The notes under the pieces were generated by a model. It was not told where the DNA came from. It did no database searches and saw only the letters and a program-made list of their open reading frames with translations. From contig NZ_SCRP01000025.1 in NCBI RefSeq assembly GCF_004298475.1, positions 53,402 to 117,401 of the forward strand: 64,000 bases of DNA, given 5' to 3'. This document shows positions 33,514 to 61,675 of the stretch, in pieces. Position 1 is the stretch's first letter. Each line of letters starts with the position of its first letter. The translations under genes were made by a program, and so were the position numbers. The DNA is from Paraburkholderia sp. (lineage in GTDB: Bacteria > Pseudomonadota > Gammaproteobacteria > Burkholderiales > Burkholderiaceae).

Positions 33514-34728
33514 TCAGGCCGCCGCGTCGAGCCCGCGCGCGAGATCGTTGCGGATGTCCTGTGCGTTTTCGAGGCCGACGGCAAGCCGGATCAGGCCTTC
33601 GGTGATGCCCGCCGCCTCGCGTGCTTCCGGCGCGATCCGGCCATGCGTGGTCGTGGCCGGGTGCGTGATCGTCGTGCGCGTATCGCCGAGATTGCCCGTG
33701 ATCGAGCACACTTTCGTGTTGTCGATCACGCGCCAGGCGTTCGCGCGCTGCTGTTCCGGCGTGTCGCCCTTCAGCTCGAACGAGACGATCGCACCGCCCA
33801 ATTTCTGCTGACGCATCGCGAGCGCATGCTGCGGATGCGACGGGAGGCCCGGATAGAACACGCGTTTGACAGCCGGATGCGCTTCGAGCCAGCTCGCGAT
33901 TTCGAGCGCGTTGGCCGACTGCTTTTCGACGCGCAGCGACAGCGTCTCCAGGCCCTTGAGCAGCACCCACGCGTTGAACGCGGAGAGCGTCGGGCCCGCG
34001 CTGCGCACGAACGGGAACACCTTTTCCATGATGAATTGCCGCGAGCCCACGAGCGCGCCGCCGAGCACGCGGCCCTGGCCGTCGAGGAACTTGGTGGCCG
34101 AGTGCATCACGACATCGGCACCGAGCTTGAGCGGCTGCTGCAATGCGGGGCTGCAAAAACAGTTGTCGACGACGAACAGCGCGTTCGCAGCCTTCGAAAT
34201 CTTGCTGATCGCTTCGATATCGGCCACTTCGGTCAGCGGATTCGAGGGCGTTTCGAGGAAGAACATCTTCGTCTCGGGGCGCACGGCGTTTTGCCACGCG
34301 TCGAGATCGGCGGGATCGACAAACGTGGTCGTGATGCCGAACTTGCCGAAGATCTGCGAGAACATGCCGATGGTCGAGCCGAAGATGCTCTGCGAGCTGA
34401 CGATGTGATCGCCCGCCTGCAGCGCCGCCATCACGACCGAGAGAATCGCCGACATGCCCGACGCCGTCGCCATGCACGCCTCGCCGCCTTCGAGCGCCGC
34501 GAGCCGGTCCTGGAACATCGTCACAGTCGGGTTCGTGAAGCGCGAGTACGTGTAGCTGGTTTCGGCGGTCTTGAAGCGCTCGGCGGCTTCGCCGGCGCTC
34601 GAAAAGCAGAAGCTCGACGTGAGGTAGAGCGCTTCCGAATGTTCGTTGAATTCGCTGCGCAGCGTACCCGAGCGCACGGCGAGGGTGTCGAAGTTAAAGG
34701 TGTCGTCCATGTTCGTGTTGTTTCCCAT
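33514..34728 (-). CDS. metZ: O-succinylhomoserine sulfhydrylase
   Basis: MetZ makes homocysteine directly from O-succinylhomoserine and sulfide in methionine synthesis. A 404-residue PLP enzyme of the Cys/Met metabolism family, with SYTYSRFTNPTVTMFQ, the PLP lysine Lys213 in MHSATKFLDGQGRVLGG and the C-terminal ITHPATTTHGRI. The gene context (directly after purF) and the sequence match MetZ of pseudomonads and Burkholderia. ATG at 34728 is given; an ATG six codons in (34710) is equally possible, and neither has a strong ribosome-binding site. A terminator ends 19 nt before the start and a SAM-II-like element lies upstream, so transcription should fall when SAM is plentiful. Confidence 0.93.
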   Translation of the reverse strand: MGNNTNMDDTFNFDTLAVRSGTLRSEFNEHSEALYLTSSFCFSSAGEAAERFKTAETSYTYSRFTNPTVTMFQDRLAALEGGEACMATASGMSAILSVVMAALQAGDHIVSSQSIFGSTIGMFSQIFGKFGITTTFVDPADLDAWQNAVRPETKMFFLETPSNPLTEVADIEAISKISKAANALFVVDNCFCSPALQQPLKLGADVVMHSATKFLDGQGRVLGGALVGSRQFIMEKVFPFVRSAGPTLSAFNAWVLLKGLETLSLRVEKQSANALEIASWLEAHPAVKRVFYPGLPSHPQHALAMRQQKLGGAIVSFELKGDTPEQQRANAWRVIDNTKVCSITGNLGDTRTTITHPATTTHGRIAPEAREAAGITEGLIRLAVGLENAQDIRNDLARGLDAAA

Positions 34729-34746: not shown

Positions 34747-34781
34747 AAAAAAGCCCGCTTTGCGTCGGCAGAAGCGGGCTT
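34747..34781 (-). terminator. Intrinsic terminator in the metZ leader
   Basis: AAGCCCGCTT (34751-34760) pairs with AAGCGGGCTT (34772-34781) around an 11-nt loop. Read on the minus strand the stem ends in a run of six U (34752 down to 34747). It sits 57 nt downstream of the riboswitch-like core and 19 nt before metZ. It could simply end the purF transcript, but its position fits the expression platform of the riboswitch better. Confidence 0.85.
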
Positions 34782-34837
34782 TCGGGTATCGGGGCAGCAG
34801 CGAGGCGTTTCGAATTCAGACTTCCGGTTCGATGCCC

Positions 34838-34900
34838 TTCGCTTTAGCTGTTTCGGGTTGCCCCGCGTCCGCAAGCTGAGATCAAATCGACGCAGGCGCC
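34838..34900 (-). promoter_or_regulatory. SAM-II-like riboswitch upstream of metZ
   Basis: On the minus strand this leader holds the SAM-II (metA RNA) core in order. A P1 stem of 8 bp, CCUGCGUC / GACGCGGG including one G-U, encloses a loop that begins GAUUUGAUC and contains AGCUUGCG. After it come GAAAC and AGCUAAAGC. Between P1 and the GAAACAGCUAAAGC segment a small hairpin GGG-GCAA-CCC is inserted or overlaps the base of P1, as in long-loop variants. SAM-II RNAs bind SAM and repress methionine genes. Recognition is by eye against the remembered consensus; downstream metZ and the terminator support it strongly. Confidence 0.75.
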
Positions 34901-34959
34901 TATGCTAACACGCGAAAGCGCACGGCACACGCGCCTGCCCTCATACGTCAACTCGCGCG

Positions 34960-53557: not shown

Positions 53558-53637
53558 CGTTGTGTCGGGAGCCGCGATTTCTACACGGTAAAAACGCGGT
53601 CGCAGCCTTCTCGCGCAGGCCCGATCGTTTGACCGTG

Positions 53638-54852
53638 TCAGGTCTGTTCGCCGGACGATTCCAGGACCCGCCAGTAACGCCAGCGCAGGCGGATCGCGCT
53701 AACAACGATCGCCGAGCCGACGAACATGATTGCCACGAAGTGCCACATGTTCTGCTCAACGAAGCTGGCCAGCAGGCTGCTCAGCGTGGCGCACGACACC
53801 ATGGCGGTGGCGAACATCGCCATCTTGGCACCGGCCGGCTCGACGCTTCCGTCGATTGCCATGCGCTGGAACGTCGCGAACGTCAGGCCATTCCCCACGT
53901 TGTAGACGAATACCCCGGCCAACAATGGCCACACCGATTCGGAAACCCAACCGGGCAGCATGACAAGCAGGCCACCGGCGAGCGCGAGCGTGATGCCGGC
54001 GCGCGTGAAGCCGCCCTTTCGCAGCGCCGATGTCTGCCCGCTTATCACGACCGCGCCGATCATGAAGCCTGCGAACACCAGCAGTTGGGTCAACCCGTAC
54101 TGAATGGGACTGTAGCCCCGCAAGTCGAGCAGCAGATGCGGACTGGATACGATCCATGCCATCGTGCCGCCGAACAGGATCGCGGCGGACACGGTATTGA
54201 CCGTAAAGGCAGGATTGCGAAGTAGGCGGCCGTAGCGCGCCATGATCTCGCCCGTTCGCAGCGCGGTACGGCTGTGTGCCTTCTGACTTTCCGGCACGAG
54301 CCAGGCTATCAGCAGTACGGCGATCATGGCCGCCACACCGATCAGCCCGAAAATGGGCCGCCATGCCCACCACTCGACGACAATGCCGCCGAGCGTGGGG
54401 CCGAAGGCCGGCGCCAGCACGGTGAGGAGGCTCATCAAGCCGAGCGCTCTGACAGCCTCTGCCTCGTCCATCGTTTCGTGGATCATCGCGTAGCCGCACA
54501 CAGCGACGGCGGCTACGGTTGTCCCCTGAAAGAAACGTGCGGTCAGGAAAACCGCGATGTCGCTGGTTGTGGCGCAGACCAGCGAACTTGCGCAGAACAG
54601 CGCGCCCCAAAGCAGCAGCACCGGCTTGCGTCCAAAACGATCGGAGATCGGACCCAGCAGCAGATTGAACACAGCGCCACCGAGAAACCACAGCGTCAGT
54701 GTCTGCTGACCCAGACGCGTATCTGCGGATAGATCGCTGCGCATGACCGGCAGCGCGGGCAGGAACATGTCGTTGGACAGATAGACGACGAGTTCGAACA
54801 GGGCCAGCAGGACGGGCGTCCAGGTCCGGGCGGAGCGCGAGGAGGTTGTCAT
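53638..54852 (-). CDS. MFS exporter of the MdfA/Bcr-CflA type
   Basis: A 404-residue major facilitator with 12 predicted helices. The first helix carries FELVVYLSNDMFLPALP with acidic residues Glu20 and Asp28, spaced like the drug/proton-coupling Glu26 and Asp34 of E. coli MdfA. The loop 2-3 motif is GPISDRFGRKPVLL. Such proteins are proton antiporters for drugs or small metabolites. It is the last gene of the seven-gene operon, 14 bp after the desulfurase gene, so it is the likely exporter of the cluster product. The ATG at 54852 avoids overlap with the upstream gene; the ribosome-binding site is weak. Confidence 0.88.
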   Translation of the reverse strand: MTTSSRSARTWTPVLLALFELVVYLSNDMFLPALPVMRSDLSADTRLGQQTLTLWFLGGAVFNLLLGPISDRFGRKPVLLLWGALFCASSLVCATTSDIAVFLTARFFQGTTVAAVAVCGYAMIHETMDEAEAVRALGLMSLLTVLAPAFGPTLGGIVVEWWAWRPIFGLIGVAAMIAVLLIAWLVPESQKAHSRTALRTGEIMARYGRLLRNPAFTVNTVSAAILFGGTMAWIVSSPHLLLDLRGYSPIQYGLTQLLVFAGFMIGAVVISGQTSALRKGGFTRAGITLALAGGLLVMLPGWVSESVWPLLAGVFVYNVGNGLTFATFQRMAIDGSVEPAGAKMAMFATAMVSCATLSSLLASFVEQNMWHFVAIMFVGSAIVVSAIRLRWRYWRVLESSGEQT

Positions 54853-54866
54853 GGTGGCCGGTCCGG

Positions 54867-56108
54867 TCAATGCATGAAGCGGGACGTTGGGCGTTCCTTC
54901 GTCCATGGTCCCGGTTTGACGCTGACCAGTGCCTCCGCCACCGTGTCAATATCGGCCAGTGTGTTGTAGACGCTGAACGATATGCGCACGGTACCCAGCA
55001 CACCCAGGCTGTCGACAAGCGGTATTGCACAATGCACGCCAGTGCGCACGGCAATATCGAAGCTGTTTAAATGATTTCCCACGTCGTAGGGATGCAGATC
55101 CCGAATGCCAAACGAAAGGATGCTGCCCTGTTCGCCGGGCGCACCGAACAGCTGTACGTGGGGCAGCGCGCCGAGCTGCTTCGCCGCGTGGGAGAACAGT
55201 GCCTGGTCGTGCCGATGAACCTCATCGAGGTCCAGAGCGGCGAGGTAGTCGGCCGCGCGAGCAAGTCCGACGGCGCCCGCCACGTTAGGCGTGCCGGCTT
55301 CGAAGCGATGCGGTGCTGGCAGGAAATGCGTCACACGCTCGTAATTGACGCCATACGCGACGCCGCCGCCTGTCTGGAACGGTGCGAGCCATTCCGTCTG
55401 GCGCGGGTTGACATACAGGACGCCGATGCCTTGCGGCCCATACATCTTGTGACCCGAGAAGCAGTAGAAGTCGACGTCGAGATCCTGCACATCCACTTTC
55501 ACATGCGCGATGGCCTGCGCGCCGTCTACCAGGACGGGAATATCGCGTTCGCGCGCCAGACGGGCCATGTCTCTCACCGGATTGGTGACGCCCAACACAT
55601 TGGACACATGGGCGATCGCAACCAGTCGGGTTTTGGGCGACAGCAGCGTCTGAAAGTCCTCCAGCCGGATCCGTCCCGTCGCGTCGATCGGCACCACATG
55701 CAGGGTGGCACCGGCTTCCTGGCAGGCCGTCTGCCAAGGCAGTAGATTGGAGTGGTGTTCCATACCAGTCACCACGACCTCGTCGCCCTGTTGCAAGCGT
55801 CGCTTGGCGAAATTCTGCGCGACGAAGTTAATCGCCTCGGTTGTACCCTTGGTAAAAATGATGCTGCTGGCCGACGCGGCATTGATGAACTGCGAAAGGG
55901 TCTGGCGACTGGCCTCGTAGGCTTCGTGTGATCGGGTGCTGAGCTTGTGGACGCTGCGCCCGACATTCGCATTGATATGACTGTAGTAATGCGTCATGGC
56001 ATCGATGACAGCGGCAGGTTTTTGTGTCGTTGCCGCGTTGTCGAGATAGATCAGGCTTTCTTCACGCGTGAAGATGGGGAAGTCTTTTTTGGCCTGGTTG
56101 ATGGACAC
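54867..56108 (-). CDS. SufS-type cysteine desulfurase / selenocysteine lyase
   Basis: A 413-residue class V aminotransferase-fold enzyme that removes sulfur from cysteine as a persulfide, or selenium from selenocysteine. PLP Lys221 is in CFSGHKMYGPQGIG; the cofactor-stacking His lies in GMEHHSN; the sulfur-accepting Cys360 is in RTGVHCAIPLV, where SufS has RTGHHCAQP. It is thus a complete group II desulfurase. No sufBCDE or other Fe-S genes are nearby, which argues against a housekeeping role and for sulfur delivery within this operon. It starts 33 bp after the gamma-synthase-like gene. Confidence 0.9.
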   Translation of the reverse strand: MSINQAKKDFPIFTREESLIYLDNAATTQKPAAVIDAMTHYYSHINANVGRSVHKLSTRSHEAYEASRQTLSQFINAASASSIIFTKGTTEAINFVAQNFAKRRLQQGDEVVVTGMEHHSNLLPWQTACQEAGATLHVVPIDATGRIRLEDFQTLLSPKTRLVAIAHVSNVLGVTNPVRDMARLARERDIPVLVDGAQAIAHVKVDVQDLDVDFYCFSGHKMYGPQGIGVLYVNPRQTEWLAPFQTGGGVAYGVNYERVTHFLPAPHRFEAGTPNVAGAVGLARAADYLAALDLDEVHRHDQALFSHAAKQLGALPHVQLFGAPGEQGSILSFGIRDLHPYDVGNHLNSFDIAVRTGVHCAIPLVDSLGVLGTVRISFSVYNTLADIDTVAEALVSVKPGPWTKERPTSRFMH

Positions 56109-56141
56109 GATGAGCCTTTGCTGGAAAAGATGAAGGTGGGG

Positions 56142-57263
56142 TTACAGATAGCGAGTCAGATCGGCGGACAGATCAGCGATATCCTCGATACCGACCGACA
56201 GGCGAATCAGGTTCGGGGTAATGCCGAGGCTGTGCTTGAGCTCGTCCGGCACGACGCGGTGTGTCATGAGCGCAGGACATTCGATCAGCGAGAACACGGC
56301 GCCGAGGCTCACCGCGCAATGGAAATACCTCAGGCCATGCATCAGCTCGGTGATGTCGCCGAGATACTCGAACGAGATGATCGCGCCGGGACCGGTCATC
56401 TGCCGCTTGCACAACGCGTGTTGCGGATGCGACTCGAGGCCGGGATAGATGACACGCGATATCTTCGGTGAGCGCTGAAGCAATTCGACCAGCGCCCGCG
56501 CGTTGGCGACCTGGCGCTCGACGCGCAGGCCCAGTGTCTTGACGCCCCGGTGGACCAGATAGCAGTCGAGCGGACCGGGCACCGCCCCCGTTACTGTGCG
56601 ATGCCGGGCAAGAACGCGATGAAATGACTCGTCGCGCGAAATCAGCGCGCCGCCGATGACATCGCCGTGACCGGCAAGGTATTTGGTCGTGCTGTAGAGA
56701 ACGAAATCAGCGCCAAAATCAAGCGGGCGCTGCAGATACGGACTGGCGAACGTGTTGTCCACCAGCACCAGTGCCTCGCGTCGTTTTGCGATCGCGCCGA
56801 TCGCCTGCAGATCAGCCAGTTTTAGCGTCGGGTTGGTGGGCGTCTCGATCCACACCAAGCGGATCCCGCCGGCGAGGGCAGCATCCACCGCATCCAGGTC
56901 GCTCATGTCGACCTTGCGGTGCCGCAGGCCGCTGGTCGCATCGAGCATCTGGAACAGATCAAGCGTCCCTCCATAGACATCGTCCGAGCACAGGAAAGTG
57001 TCGCCCGGACGCAGCAGGCTCAGCGCCGCAGCGCCTGCCGCCTGCCCAGAGGCAAAGGCGAGTGCGTGTGCGCCGCCTTCCAGTGCCGCCAGGCAGTGTT
57101 CAAGCGCTTCACGCGTCGGATTCTCACCTCGACCGTAGAAATAGCGCAGCGGCGCCTGATTTTCCTGCGCGAACGTCGAAGCCAGATGAAGGGGCGGGAC
57201 GACCGCCCCCGTGACCGGATCCGGCCTCTGGCCGACATGTACCGCGATCGTATCGAATTGCAT
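56142..57263 (-). CDS. Cys/Met-metabolism PLP enzyme (cystathionine gamma-synthase/lyase family)
   Basis: A 373-residue fold-type I PLP enzyme. The phosphate-binding YFYGRGENPTREALE (Tyr43, Arg45), Tyr98 in DDVYGGT, Asp169 in LVDNTFASPYLQ and PLP Lys194 in YSTTKYLAGHGD are all present, so it should be active. Family members act as cystathionine gamma-synthase, gamma-lyase, methionine gamma-lyase or sulfhydrylase, and these cannot be separated by eye. It is distinct from metZ in this window. Its ATG overlaps the upstream ahcY-like stop (TGATG). Next to SAH hydrolase and a cysteine desulfurase it probably handles homocysteine or cystathionine; that is inference. Confidence 0.88.
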   Translation of the reverse strand: MQFDTIAVHVGQRPDPVTGAVVPPLHLASTFAQENQAPLRYFYGRGENPTREALEHCLAALEGGAHALAFASGQAAGAAALSLLRPGDTFLCSDDVYGGTLDLFQMLDATSGLRHRKVDMSDLDAVDAALAGGIRLVWIETPTNPTLKLADLQAIGAIAKRREALVLVDNTFASPYLQRPLDFGADFVLYSTTKYLAGHGDVIGGALISRDESFHRVLARHRTVTGAVPGPLDCYLVHRGVKTLGLRVERQVANARALVELLQRSPKISRVIYPGLESHPQHALCKRQMTGPGAIISFEYLGDITELMHGLRYFHCAVSLGAVFSLIECPALMTHRVVPDELKHSLGITPNLIRLSVGIEDIADLSADLTRYL

Positions 57264-58552
57264 CAGGCGACGCTCTCGACTTCGAGGCTCTTCTTCGTGC
57301 CTTCTTCCCACGCGTCGAGATAGCTTTGCTGCTCCGGCGTGAGCACATCGATCTCGATGTTGCGCGAAGCGAGCTTCATCGCTGCGATCATTGTGTCGAT
57401 TTCCGGTGGCATGTCCAGCACGCTGATCGGCAGGTCCGGATGCTTGACGAGATATTCGCAGCCTAGCGCCTGGTTTGCGAACGACATGTCCATCACTTCC
57501 GCCGGGTGTCCCTCGGCCGCACAGAGATTGACGAGGCGCCCCTCGGCCAGTACCGAAATGCGCTGTCCGCTCGCGAGCGTAAACTGCTCGATATCCCGGC
57601 GAATTTTCTGGGTGCCCGAGGACAGATCGCGCAGGCGAACGAGGTCGATCTCGCAATCGAAGTGACCGGCGTTGGCGAGCACAATGTTGTCCTTCATGGC
57701 GGCGAAGTGACGGTCGTCGATGACCGATTTGTTGCCCGTCACCGTGACGAACACGTCGCCGAGCGGAGCAGCCTGCTCCATCGGCATGACGCGAAAGCCC
57801 TCCATGACCGCTTCGAGCGCACGGACCGGATCAATCTCGGTGACGATCACGTCGGCACCCATCCCTGCCGCGCGCATGGCTACGCCACGCCCGCACATGC
57901 CGAACCCGGCCACGACGAATTTCTTGCCGGCCAGCAACATGTTGGTCGCGCGCAGGATCGCGTCGACGGTTGATTGACCGGTGCCGTACCGGTTGTCGAA
58001 CATATGCTTGGTCTTGGAGTCGTTGATCGCAATGATTGGATACCTGAGTCCGCCCATGCGCTCCAGGTTCTTCACCCGGATCACGCCGGTAGTGGTTTCC
58101 TCGAGTCCACCGACGATGTTCGTGGCAGCGGACGCATAGTCCGAGTGCAGCAGCTTGGTGAGATCGCCGCCGTCATCGATTACCACATGCGGTTGCGCGT
58201 CGAGCACCATATAGCAGTGACTTTCATAGGTCTTCAGATCCTCGCCGTGAATCGCGTAGACGTGTACGCCCTGCGACGAAAGATAGGCAGTAACCGGATC
58301 TTGCGTGCTGATCGGATTGGATGCGCAGAGGTACACTTTGGCGCCGCCAGCGCGCAGCGTCTCAATCAGGTTGGAGGTCTCGGCCGTGATATGCAGGCAT
58401 GCGCCGATGACGCGGCCCGCCAGCGGTCGCTCGCGCTCGAAGCGGCGGCGAATCGATTCGAGAACGGGCATGTTGCGCCGTGCCCACTCGGTCAGTTCAC
58501 GACCTTCATTGGCCAGGTTAATGTCGGCGATATGAGACGGATGCGTGTGCAT
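57263..58552 (-). CDS. ahcY: S-adenosylhomocysteine hydrolase, short archaeal-type
   Basis: SAH hydrolase splits S-adenosylhomocysteine to adenosine and homocysteine, relieving methyltransferase inhibition. 429 residues, against roughly 470 for the usual beta-proteobacterial enzyme. Substrate blocks LHITAETSNL, IDDGGDLTKLL, GGLEETTTGV and INDSKTKHMFDNRYGTGQS are intact, as is the NAD loop GFGMCGRG (216-223). It ends SYLDAWEEGTKK like archaeal and Thermotoga enzymes instead of the KPDHYRY end. It is therefore probably a second, acquired copy dedicated to this operon. AAGGA lies 6 nt upstream of the ATG at 58552. Confidence 0.93.
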   Translation of the reverse strand: MHTHPSHIADINLANEGRELTEWARRNMPVLESIRRRFERERPLAGRVIGACLHITAETSNLIETLRAGGAKVYLCASNPISTQDPVTAYLSSQGVHVYAIHGEDLKTYESHCYMVLDAQPHVVIDDGGDLTKLLHSDYASAATNIVGGLEETTTGVIRVKNLERMGGLRYPIIAINDSKTKHMFDNRYGTGQSTVDAILRATNMLLAGKKFVVAGFGMCGRGVAMRAAGMGADVIVTEIDPVRALEAVMEGFRVMPMEQAAPLGDVFVTVTGNKSVIDDRHFAAMKDNIVLANAGHFDCEIDLVRLRDLSSGTQKIRRDIEQFTLASGQRISVLAEGRLVNLCAAEGHPAEVMDMSFANQALGCEYLVKHPDLPISVLDMPPEIDTMIAAMKLASRNIEIDVLTPEQQSYLDAWEEGTKKSLEVESVA

Positions 58553-58604
58553 GCAGGTTCCTTGTCTAGAGCAACGAAAATGAAGAAAGGGATGGCTTGG
58601 CCGC

Positions 58605-59447
58605 TTATCGTCTGGCGGAGAAGCACAGGGCATGTGAGGGCAGCGATACCGTGCCGTCCGCACGCACGAAGTGGCCAGCCGTTTCGGCGAACTTCGTCCA
58701 TAGGGCGGCGAGCCGTTCCGGCGAAGCGCGTTCGGCGATGGCCGCACCGATACCGGGTGGAATCAGGTCGCGCGAGAATTCGACGAATTCAGTCAACGTC
58801 TCGAACATGAATGGTGCGACGACCTGTTCGCAACGAGTCTGCTTGAAGCCCGCGGCGTCCAGCTCGGCGAGCACGGCCCGCTCGTCGGCCATGCTGAACG
58901 GATTGGGCTTGCCTGGCGGCGGTGGCGGCAGATCCAGCTCGCGTGCGAAGAAGCCGACGGCGAGACTGATCACAGGTACCTGGCCCGGCGTACTCCAGGT
59001 AGAAAACACAAGTCGCCCGCCGGGTGTCATGGCTTCCCGAAGGCGCAGCAGGCACGCCTGCCGATTCGGCATGAACATCAGCCCGAACCGGCTCGTCACG
59101 ACCTCGAAGCGCGAATCCGGCACGAAATGTTCGGCATCGGCCGCGACGAACGATACGTTCGCGACCTTACCCTGGCGCCGCCGCGCTACCGCGATCATTT
59201 CTTCGGAGACGTCGATACCTGTCACATGGCCGGTGGACCCCACCTGTGCCGCGATGCTCAAGGCCGGCTCACCGAGGCCCGTCGCCACGTCGAGAACGCG
59301 ATCACCAACTTCGAGGGCCGCGCTGTCAATCAGCGTACGGCTGACATGGCTTGCGCCGCGTTCGAATGCGTCGCCCCAATGCTCCCATGCTTGAGCGAGC
59401 GTATTCCATATTTCCCGCTGCTCCTGGCTCGCGGATGTCGTCTTCAT
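58605..59447 (-). CDS. Class I SAM-dependent methyltransferase
   Basis: A 280-residue Rossmann-fold methyltransferase of the UbiE/Methyltransf_11 type. Motif I is VLDVATGLGEPALSIA (51-66), the ribose-binding acidic residue follows in TGIDVSEEM (Asp79), then ADAEHF, and motif III-like MTPGGRLVFSTWS. The acceptor is unknown: C-, N-, O- and S-methylating enzymes share this layout. The C-terminal region contains FEFSRDL-like FVEFSRDLIPPG. In the operon its by-product SAH would be consumed by the adjoining hydrolase. ATG 59447 is preferred to one two codons earlier because AAGGA then has 6 nt spacing. Confidence 0.88.
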   Translation of the reverse strand: MKTTSASQEQREIWNTLAQAWEHWGDAFERGASHVSRTLIDSAALEVGDRVLDVATGLGEPALSIAAQVGSTGHVTGIDVSEEMIAVARRRQGKVANVSFVAADAEHFVPDSRFEVVTSRFGLMFMPNRQACLLRLREAMTPGGRLVFSTWSTPGQVPVISLAVGFFARELDLPPPPPGKPNPFSMADERAVLAELDAAGFKQTRCEQVVAPFMFETLTEFVEFSRDLIPPGIGAAIAERASPERLAALWTKFAETAGHFVRADGTVSLPSHALCFSARR

Positions 59448-59469
59448 ATGCATTCCTTATAGGTGGCAC

Positions 59470-60402
59470 TCAAATTGCGCCGGTGTCAACGAGCTTTCGC
59501 AGCGCCGCGATATACCGGGGCGATGTGCCGCAGCAACCGCCGACGAGGCTCAGTCCATAGCGTGACGCGCTCTCGCTGATGAATTCGACGAACTGTCGTG
59601 TAGAAACGTTGGGACGCAAGTAACCACCCTGGATGCCGACGGACTCTTCGGCGCGATCTTCGACATTCGGATAGGCGCCGAGAGCAAGATGGCCGACCGA
59701 CGCCAGGTGGGTCAGTGCCAGGTGTGTCGCCGCAAGATTGCTGCAATTAACGCTGATCGCGAGCGGAGCAAATTCGGCGACGAAGTCCTGCAGCGGCGAG
59801 TAGTTCTCACCGCCGAGCAACAGACCATATGGATCGCACACAAAGCTGACGATGAAGGGAGCCTGCATCTCGCGGCATATCGCTCCGATTACCTGAGCCT
59901 CTCGCCACGTGTTGATTGTTTCCGCCAGGATGAGATCGGCACCGGCGTCCAGCAGACCGGCGATCGAGTCACGGTGTTCTTTGCGCAGGATGCTGATTGA
60001 CGGCGTGTCTTCAGGGCGGTAGGCGTCGGCGACGGGAGCGAGCGATCCAGCGATCAGAACCTGACGATCGCCATCAGCCTGGTCGACCGCTTGCCGGGCA
60101 AGGCCGATGGCAATGGCGGTGAGTTCCGCGGTCGTAATATGCCGGTCGCTTTCTGCGACTGCCTTCCGAGTGGTCCGGAACGTATTGGCAGTGATGATGT
60201 CGGCGCCTGCCTCGACGTACTCGCCGTGAATTTCCAGTAGCGCCGCGCGGCCCTCGGGCGTCAGCAACATCTCGGCAGACCACAAGGGCGGCCGCAACTT
60301 GAAGCCGCGGCGCTGCAGTTCGGTGGCGGTGGCACCGTCGAGCAGCACGGGCATTTTCGAGGCAAGCCTCAAGCGAAGTGACATGAGCGTTTGATCGCTC
60401 AT
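59470..60402 (-). CDS. Homocysteine S-methyltransferase family protein
   Basis: A 310-residue (beta/alpha)8 zinc methyltransferase like MmuM, which makes methionine from homocysteine using S-methylmethionine or SAM. It starts LLDGATATELQRRG, continues through ADIITANTFRTTRKA and LILAETINTWREAQV, and has zinc ligands Cys220 in SVNCSNLA and Cys290/Cys291 in GGCCGTSPRYI. All ligands are present. ATG 60402 overlaps the stop of the upstream gene (ATGA); an ATG six codons earlier would overlap more. In this operon it would return homocysteine released by the SAH hydrolase to methionine. Confidence 0.9.
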   Translation of the reverse strand: MSDQTLMSLRLRLASKMPVLLDGATATELQRRGFKLRPPLWSAEMLLTPEGRAALLEIHGEYVEAGADIITANTFRTTRKAVAESDRHITTAELTAIAIGLARQAVDQADGDRQVLIAGSLAPVADAYRPEDTPSISILRKEHRDSIAGLLDAGADLILAETINTWREAQVIGAICREMQAPFIVSFVCDPYGLLLGGENYSPLQDFVAEFAPLAISVNCSNLAATHLALTHLASVGHLALGAYPNVEDRAEESVGIQGGYLRPNVSTRQFVEFISESASRYGLSLVGGCCGTSPRYIAALRKLVDTGAI

Positions 60403-61148
60403 GTCGGTTGACCCGCCCATGGTTCTACGACGCTTTCACGAAAGCGTTCGATCAGGCAGGCTGGTAGCAGCATCGCCTTTTGCGGAGGATAGCGCCGCGA
60501 GCACGGTGGCCTGTAGTCGCTGTCGACACGTGTTGGCAAGTGCAGCGTTCGGTCGAGAAGATGGGCACCGCGGTAGAACCAGCATATCTGGCCGACCGTT
60601 TCGGTAAAGACGGCGTGACCTGCCGTGGATGACAACAACTGGAGGTGATGCAGGGCCGCCATGCATTCACCATGCAGCGAGAAGTCCTGACGTGGCAAGT
60701 AGTGGCAGTAGTAGTCATGTACCGCTCGAAACAGGTCGTTATACGCAAACCGGTAGCCATCAATCACGATGTCGCTGCGTTCCAGCATCGGATGGTCGGT
60801 CGGTGCAGCGACGTCGCTTCCGTATCCACAAGAGGTCAGATAGACGTATAGCGTGCTGGTCGACGCCACCCGGGCGATCATGTCGCCTGAATTTGCATAG
60901 GGCTGACCTTGACCGAGAAACGGGCGGATCTTGATGCCGTGCCTGGACATGAACTCGAATTGCATCAGAATCTCTTCCTTGAGCGCTTCGTATGCATCGC
61001 GAACTTTCGGATCATCTGGTGCGTGCGGCGTCATGTCATAGGTGATCGCCACGCGTGAGAAGAAATGCTCCTGCATGCGCAAGCCCAATGGCTTTGACTC
61101 CCTGAAAGGGAATTTTTCCTTGATGTAGCATTCCGCCAGTAAAGTCAT
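60399..61148 (-). CDS. Unrecognised 249-residue protein heading the sulfur/SAM operon
   Basis: I do not recognise a named family. The 249 residues have no signal peptide or membrane segment. A central block looks like an active site: LYVYLTSCGYG (100-110), YNDLFRAVHDYYCH (Asn137, Asp138, Arg141, His144, Asp145, His149), HGECMAALHHL (Glu161, His167, His168) and TETVGQICW (Glu183, Gln187, Trp190). The spaced His and Glu could bind one or two metal ions. I have a memory of a similar ND-FR-VHD block in long phage-encoded proteins of unknown function, not verified. ATG 61148 has AGGA upstream; a TTG 18 codons earlier does not. ATGA-coupled to the next gene. Confidence 0.7.
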   Translation of the reverse strand: MTLLAECYIKEKFPFRESKPLGLRMQEHFFSRVAITYDMTPHAPDDPKVRDAYEALKEEILMQFEFMSRHGIKIRPFLGQGQPYANSGDMIARVASTSTLYVYLTSCGYGSDVAAPTDHPMLERSDIVIDGYRFAYNDLFRAVHDYYCHYLPRQDFSLHGECMAALHHLQLLSSTAGHAVFTETVGQICWFYRGAHLLDRTLHLPTRVDSDYRPPCSRRYPPQKAMLLPACLIERFRESVVEPWAGQPT

Positions 61149-61675
61149 GAATTCAGTCCTGTCAGCCAATTGAACGGAGGCAGATGTCTGATCGCTAGTC
61201 AATGTCGGGTCGGGGGCTGCTGCTGCCTTTGCTTACATGGCGCTGCCTGGCACGTCGCTTGGCAGGCGCTGGCCGATTCGTGCGAGAGTTGTGCGGACTC
61301 GTGCGTACCCTCTTCGATCGCTGGCAAAGTTTCGCGCTCAATACCGCGGAATCAACGGCAAGGAAATCTTTTAACGTTGCAGCCTCGATAACCCCGTCGT
61401 TAATCGCTTCAAGCCGTCCTTTATCGATATCGGCAATACCTTTAAAGACTACTAAATTTCCTATTTACCAGATCTGGCAGCTTTACCGTCGCCACACCGG
61501 ATTTGCCGCTATAAGGTGGGACACAATTGATTCATGCCACCGATACTCACCAGCGTCGTTTCTTTCACAATTGAAAGGAATAATGCCGACCTAACGTGAC
61601 AGCAACATGAATGAGGGCGGGGTGGGCAAGCACCAGTCGTTCAACTTCAGCAGCTATCTCATCGCGTTGCTCGCA
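61149..61675. other. Low-GC spacer upstream of the sulfur/SAM operon
   Basis: This 527-bp stretch between the ATPase gene and the operon has no intact gene. Its middle (61340-61600) is clearly lower in GC than the rest of the window, for example tttaaagactactaaatttc near 61441. It holds the possible broken coding sequence and must hold the operon promoter, read leftwards. I could not fix a promoter with confidence and saw no known riboswitch. Confidence 0.5.
61199..61466 (-). pseudogene. Possible frameshifted small coding sequence ahead of the operon
   Basis: On the minus strand an open frame from 61464 reads NLVVFKGIADIDKGRLEAIN and goes on through EAATLKDFLAVDSA, which looks coding but has no ATG, GTG or TTG before it. 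Near 61345 its quality drops into an Arg-rich run. The frame shifted by one base continues sensibly: ERETLPAIEEGTHESAQLSH, then SACQATCQAAPCK, with stop at 61199-61201, 50 bp before the operon's first ATG. Joined, this would be about 90 residues with an acidic first part and three Cys near the end. It may be a decayed gene, a sequencing error or a small peptide gene; no function is claimed. Confidence 0.3.

Follow-up and report, generated by a model that had tools for sequence, protein, structure and literature searches.

A seven-gene Paraburkholderia operon as a putative stand-alone counterpart of the sulfur module in calicheamicin-type enediyne loci

The stretch analysed here, hereafter the window, comprises 64,000 nucleotides of Paraburkholderia sp. 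(assembly GCF_004298475.1, contig NZ_SCRP01000025.1, positions 53,402 to 117,401) and represents contig C38 of a 4.25 Mb host genome in 38 contigs with a completeness of 99.98%. On its minus strand, from 61148 to 53638, seven consecutive open reading frames (ORFs) encode in this order a protein without a named family (X), a homocysteine S-methyltransferase family protein (HMT), a class I methyltransferase (MT), an adenosylhomocysteinase (SAHH), an enzyme of the cystathionine gamma-synthase family (CGS), a cysteine desulfurase (SufS) and an exporter of the MFS type (MFS). On balance, we consider this operon to be a stand-alone, horizontally moving biosynthetic unit. Five of its genes (X, SufS, MT, CGS and HMT) form a core that we equate with the sulfur module found at enediyne loci of the calicheamicin type; the operon probably produces a small sulfur compound bearing a methyl group and secretes it. 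The initial annotation had proposed a dedicated pathway to an exported methylated metabolite containing sulfur or perhaps selenium. This interpretation is partly supported and was right in direction, as the unit is conserved, mobile and accompanied by housekeeping paralogues in the genome and the MT fold resembles thiol S-methyltransferases; nothing pointed to selenium. No description of the operon was found in the open-licence literature.

Conservation and spread of the operon

The ORFs and the sequence bore out the gene set, gene order and six junctions given by the initial annotation. The junctions read ATGA (X/HMT, with the HMT start at 60402), 22 bp (HMT/MT, with the MT start at 59447), 52 bp, TGATG, 33 bp and 14 bp (SufS/MFS, with the MFS start at 54852), and we infer from sequence a single transcript for all seven genes. 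Nor are the genes confined to one strain, since the same seven-gene order was found in P. phenazinium and in the gammaproteobacterial metagenome-assembled genome UBA7310, with protein identities of 36-70% to the window in the latter. P. phenazinium LMG 2247 carries all seven genes with proteins 78-93% identical to those of the window, and the two loci are joined by a single blastn alignment (53637-61207, 7,584 columns, 85.6% DNA identity), the edges of which are the operon's own ends; beyond this block no homology was found in the 14 kb compared. As the block alone is homologous between the two loci, the seven genes appear to have moved as one unit. Two Streptomyces and Micromonospora tarensis have the core in the order X-SufS-MT-CGS-HMT; SAHH and an MFS gene lie next to it in divergent orientation. 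These exporters resemble DHA2/LmrA types, whose cut-offs they do not reach, more than Bcr/CflA. Counting the window, six species from two phyla have the module with SAHH and an exporter and without enediyne genes. A LuxR-type regulator with an autoinducer-binding domain lies divergent from the operon in P. phenazinium (L006:11531-12232), and no counterpart of it was found in the window.

The operon is rare. Among 144 genomes of the genus, X matched the window's own genome, the protein of P. phenazinium LMG 2247 (89%) and part of a frame of 1,124 aa (35%), so that operon-type X was present in 2/144 with the own genome counted. The samples at higher ranks, which overlap, yielded the own genome only in the class (1/369), the own genome, G079 (35%) and G607 (34%, 3,485-aa frame) in the family (operon-type 1/398), and the own genome and G923 (33%, 3,606-aa frame) in the phylum (operon-type 1/398). 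Scanning genomes with the X profile A1 yielded 116 confirmed loci, and the analysis covered the 80 that ranked best. All four partners SufS, MT, CGS and HMT accompanied X at 26 of these 80 loci, three at 10, two at 1, one at 4 and none at 39; hence X stands together with at least three partners at 36/80. The 39 partnerless loci include frames of up to ~3,600 aa of the phage polyvalent type. In Nocardiopsis sp. CNR-923 (L135:12164-14490) the matches to SufS and to CGS are both split into two fragments, which may be broken genes or assembly errors.

Association with enediyne genes

A link to enediynes comes from the 36 loci with at least three partners. Using as query a gene of the Nocardia loci whose closest PDB match is CalE7 (E 1.2e-57), a CalE7-like thioesterase was found genome-wide for 31/36 of them, all actinobacterial, with 6 of the 31 coming from a first search and 25 from a second. 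The remaining five loci lack a clear thioesterase; SAHH (at least 33% identity) accompanies the module at precisely these five, and each of them also has an MFS gene. The thioesterase was present in 31/31 actinobacterial X genomes of the second search, although for six of these the fetched stretch shows at most two partners; it also occurred in L153 and in neither of two Ruegeria genomes. No match was obtained in L109, L111, L112, L136 or the window's genome, and L110 gave a single match of 26% (E 8.8e-4). As a comparison rate we used a published survey, which reports enediyne polyketide synthase (PKS) cassettes in 81/3,400 actinomycetes (PMC5181780).

A PKS of ~1,900 aa and the thioesterase adjoin the module in the Nocardia and Micromonospora loci. 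With this PKS as query, 6/6 enediyne-type genomes gave an alignment of 1,700 aa or more, at 43-55% identity or with the query itself, and 6/6 stand-alone genomes, the window's included, reached among the matches listed at most 39% over at most ~860 aa; the best of these in the window's genome was 35% over residues 142-808 of 1,875. The window's genome thus has neither an enediyne iterative PKS nor a CalE7-type thioesterase by these searches, and it has a CalE6-type gamma-lyase, namely CGS, in terms of sequence relation. Near the module, adenosine deaminase-like genes were seen in Nocardia/Nocardiopsis loci (L126:6846-7970) and TldD-/TldE-like metalloprotease genes in Micromonospora enediyne loci (L117:11898-14821).

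The closest relative of CGS in the PDB is CalE6 (4u1t, E 1.1e-123), one of the calicheamicin sulfur genes (CalE4 and CalE6), and like the operon the calicheamicin system combines a cysteine desulfurase with a gamma-lyase. In the Micromonospora loci that carry the same core beside an enediyne PKS and a CalE7-like thioesterase, the identity between CGS and CalE6 reaches 87%. In contrast to calicheamicin, the window shows SAHH and the exporter added in one packed operon and no enediyne PKS or thioesterase in its genome. The likeness of X, MT and HMT is drawn from the actinobacterial enediyne-type loci.

Quick trees were computed for X and CGS. The X tree (59 sequences) set the 34 sequences of the module apart from phage and other rows (support 100). 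Its 28 enediyne-type rows formed one clade (98), outside which the six stand-alone rows fell on at least two branches, the basal forks being open. The CGS tree (37 sequences, rooted without support on three paralogues from the window's genome) likewise grouped 31 enediyne-type rows in one clade (90), which contains CalE6 (87% identical to L122), and placed the six stand-alone rows outside. A derivation of the enediyne module from stand-alone operons would fit these trees and is unproven, and the direction of transfer is weakly supported.

Enzymes, exporter and protein X

MT is Methyltransf_31/UbiE-like by family search, and its model (pLDDT 94.8) ranked the fungal thiol S-methyltransferases TmtA (titled S-methyltransferase) and GtmA first with both structure aligners. 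GtmA acts in the gliotoxin pathway. MT shares the fold of these enzymes at an identity of ~21%, and gliotoxin-type genes are not present at the operon; it is likely a thiol or persulfide S-methyltransferase, as judged from the model. CGS belongs to PF01053 and all NCBIfam equivalogs stayed below their cut-offs, including methionine gamma-lyase TIGR01328 (347.3 bits, cut-off 549.7). For its relative CalE6, methionine gamma-lyase activity has been reported, and the same source states that its role in thiosugar or trisulfide formation was unknown as of 2016 (PMC4851618).

SufS scored above the cut-off of TIGR01979 (496.4 vs 475.1 bits), and the catalytic-cysteine motif RxGxHC was present in 39/39 sequences, reading RTGVHC in the window. 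Ranked by E-value, its first NCBIfam match was the family 2A encapsulin cargo desulfurase, whose cut-off of 800 bits it missed with a score of 502.7; the Streptomyces copy gave the same first match, again below cut-off. HMT matched PF02574 with 184.7 bits (gathering cut-off 22) and no NCBIfam equivalog above cut-off; its NC and GGCC cysteine motifs, found in 33/33 sequences, we take to be the zinc site, the roles of the zinc and pyridoxal phosphate (PLP) motifs being our assumption throughout. SAHH scored 582.2 bits for ahcY TIGR00936 (cut-off 497.6), and MFS 218.4 bits for Bcr/CflA TIGR00710 (cut-off 200.9).

X belongs to a family without a name or a known fold. Neither a Pfam nor an NCBIfam family was found at E 0.001 or better, its homologues likewise gave no match above the cut-offs of these databases, and its confident AF2 model (pLDDT 92.9, pTM 0.90) had no fold match in the PDB. 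The start is ATG 61148 or TTG 61202, and DNA homology to P. phenazinium extends to 61207. By sequence and predicted fold, X is homologous to phage polyvalent-protein domains related to phrog_3170. The phage version is usually one domain in proteins of up to ~3,500 aa, whereas X is a free protein, and the two form separate clades (SH-aLRT 100). In alignment A2 (83 sequences) N137, D138, F140, R141, V143, H144, D145, H149 and G160 are invariant and E161, H168, E183 and Q187 reach at least 90%. X is predicted to be a metal-dependent enzyme with an undescribed fold. Outside the sulfur module, a free X gene is followed by an adenosylhomocysteinase-like gene in Ruegeria (L145:9896-12260 and L147:9848-11896). 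In Actinophytocola algeriensis (L153:8741-11176) an adenosylhomocysteinase-like domain precedes the X domain, with DUF3293 at the C-terminus, and in two actinobacterial loci (L010:9239-10633 and L160:9209-10597) X lies behind a sub-threshold match to PF23780, an S-adenosylmethionine (SAM) lyase family.

In the working that we propose, SufS would draw sulfane sulfur from cysteine and CGS would cleave methionine, homocysteine or S-conjugates to methanethiol, sulfide or a thiol. X might join or transfer the sulfur, and MT would cap the thiol or persulfide with a SAM methyl group. SAHH and HMT, the latter with a presumed methyl donor, would recycle S-adenosylhomocysteine to methionine, and MFS would export a small S-methylated (poly)sulfide. 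Because the core is kept both with and without enediyne genes, the product should be a self-contained methyl-sulfur unit, which enediyne pathways would add to the enediyne core. More speculatively, and in our view with less chance of being right than wrong, the seven genes could be a free-living, ancestor-type methyl-polysulfide pathway that secretes a self-contained product, the core of which enediyne producers adopted for their warheads. X would then be the first member of a new enzyme fold that also occurs in phage-injected polyvalent proteins; its task would be to form or transfer the polysulfide, or else to process an intermediate derived from SAM.

Alternative explanations, significance and genomic setting

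Several observations weigh against a stand-alone unit with an enediyne-type sulfur core. Linkage to enediyne genes within the fetched stretches was seen at a minority of loci (thioesterase in 13/36, enediyne-type PKS in 12/36), enediyne-type loci show no SAHH within the stretches fetched, and the exporter is not homologous across all stand-alone loci; the evidence comes from genes, sequence and fold comparison. An operon that merely provides the sulfur and the methyl for a bigger molecule assembled by other genes of the genome, such as a polyketide, and has no product of its own appears rather unlikely. The module does adjoin a PKS in actinobacteria and generic PKS genes exist in the window's genome (e.g. 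C4:86054-88084), but the transferred block consists of the seven genes alone, at unrelated sites, and has its own exporter. Moreover, no eighth gene is common to the window, L109, L110, L111, L112 and L136 among the matches listed, which gave just weak single-pair matches (27-32%).

Primary metabolism, in the form of a methionine/SAM salvage or sulfur-scavenging operon, is suggested by the families of HMT, SAHH and CGS, which are enzymes of that kind. Against it stand the rarity of the operon, the recurrence of its core alongside enediyne genes and the relatives already encoded in the genome, and we regard it as improbable. These relatives comprise a long-type SAHH on contig C25 (45% identical to the operon SAHH), a MetH-like protein (30%), an IscS-like desulfurase (32%) and, outside the operon at 33532-34569 of the window, the gene that the initial annotation called metZ, a name which we presume from position. 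Less probable still is a volatile-forming or detoxifying pathway that dumps excess sulfide as methanethiol and dimethyl polysulfides or as methylated selenium. A gamma-lyase and a possible thiol methyltransferase may suffice for methanethiol and dimethyl sulfide, but HMT, SufS, X and the MFS exporter would then be superfluous, and no sign of selenium was seen.

Three points are new here: the core of the unit that we favour is common to trisulfide-type enediyne loci, it occurs by itself as well, accompanied by SAHH and an exporter, and X represents a family with neither a name nor a known fold. According to PMC4851618 (2016), it was not known how the methyl trisulfide that acts as trigger in calicheamicin is made. 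A compact, PKS-free seven-gene form in a proteobacterium would allow this sulfur chemistry to be studied by itself, and the operon could reveal how a calicheamicin-type sulfur trigger is built. Furthermore, it gives biochemical context to a family so far seen as an unnamed phage polyvalent-protein domain.

Coordinates of the operon genes and of the shared block in the window
Feature	Position	Strand	Description
X	60399..61148	-	249 aa, without curated family; alternative start TTG 61202
HMT	59470..60402	-	homocysteine S-methyltransferase family (PF02574); ATGA junction with the start at 60402; longer ORF from 60420
MT	58605..59453	-	class I SAM methyltransferase, likely thiol/persulfide S-methyltransferase
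SAHH	57263..58552	-	short-type adenosylhomocysteinase, besides the long housekeeping copy
CGS	56142..57263	-	PLP gamma-lyase/synthase-family enzyme, CalE6 relative
SufS-type cysteine desulfurase	54867..56108	-	TIGR01979 above cut-off
MFS exporter, Bcr/CflA type	53638..54852	-	TIGR00710; longer ORF from 54906
Homology block common with P. phenazinium	53637..61207	.	one blastn alignment; apparent transfer unit

The operon is flanked on one side by an AAA_21 ATPase gene, with a YaaH-type transporter gene next, and on the other by what we take from the sequences to be the leuC-leuD-leuB region. Elsewhere in the window, positions 34748-34934 (+) match Rfam Bp2_287, a Burkholderia sRNA candidate, with 111 bits.
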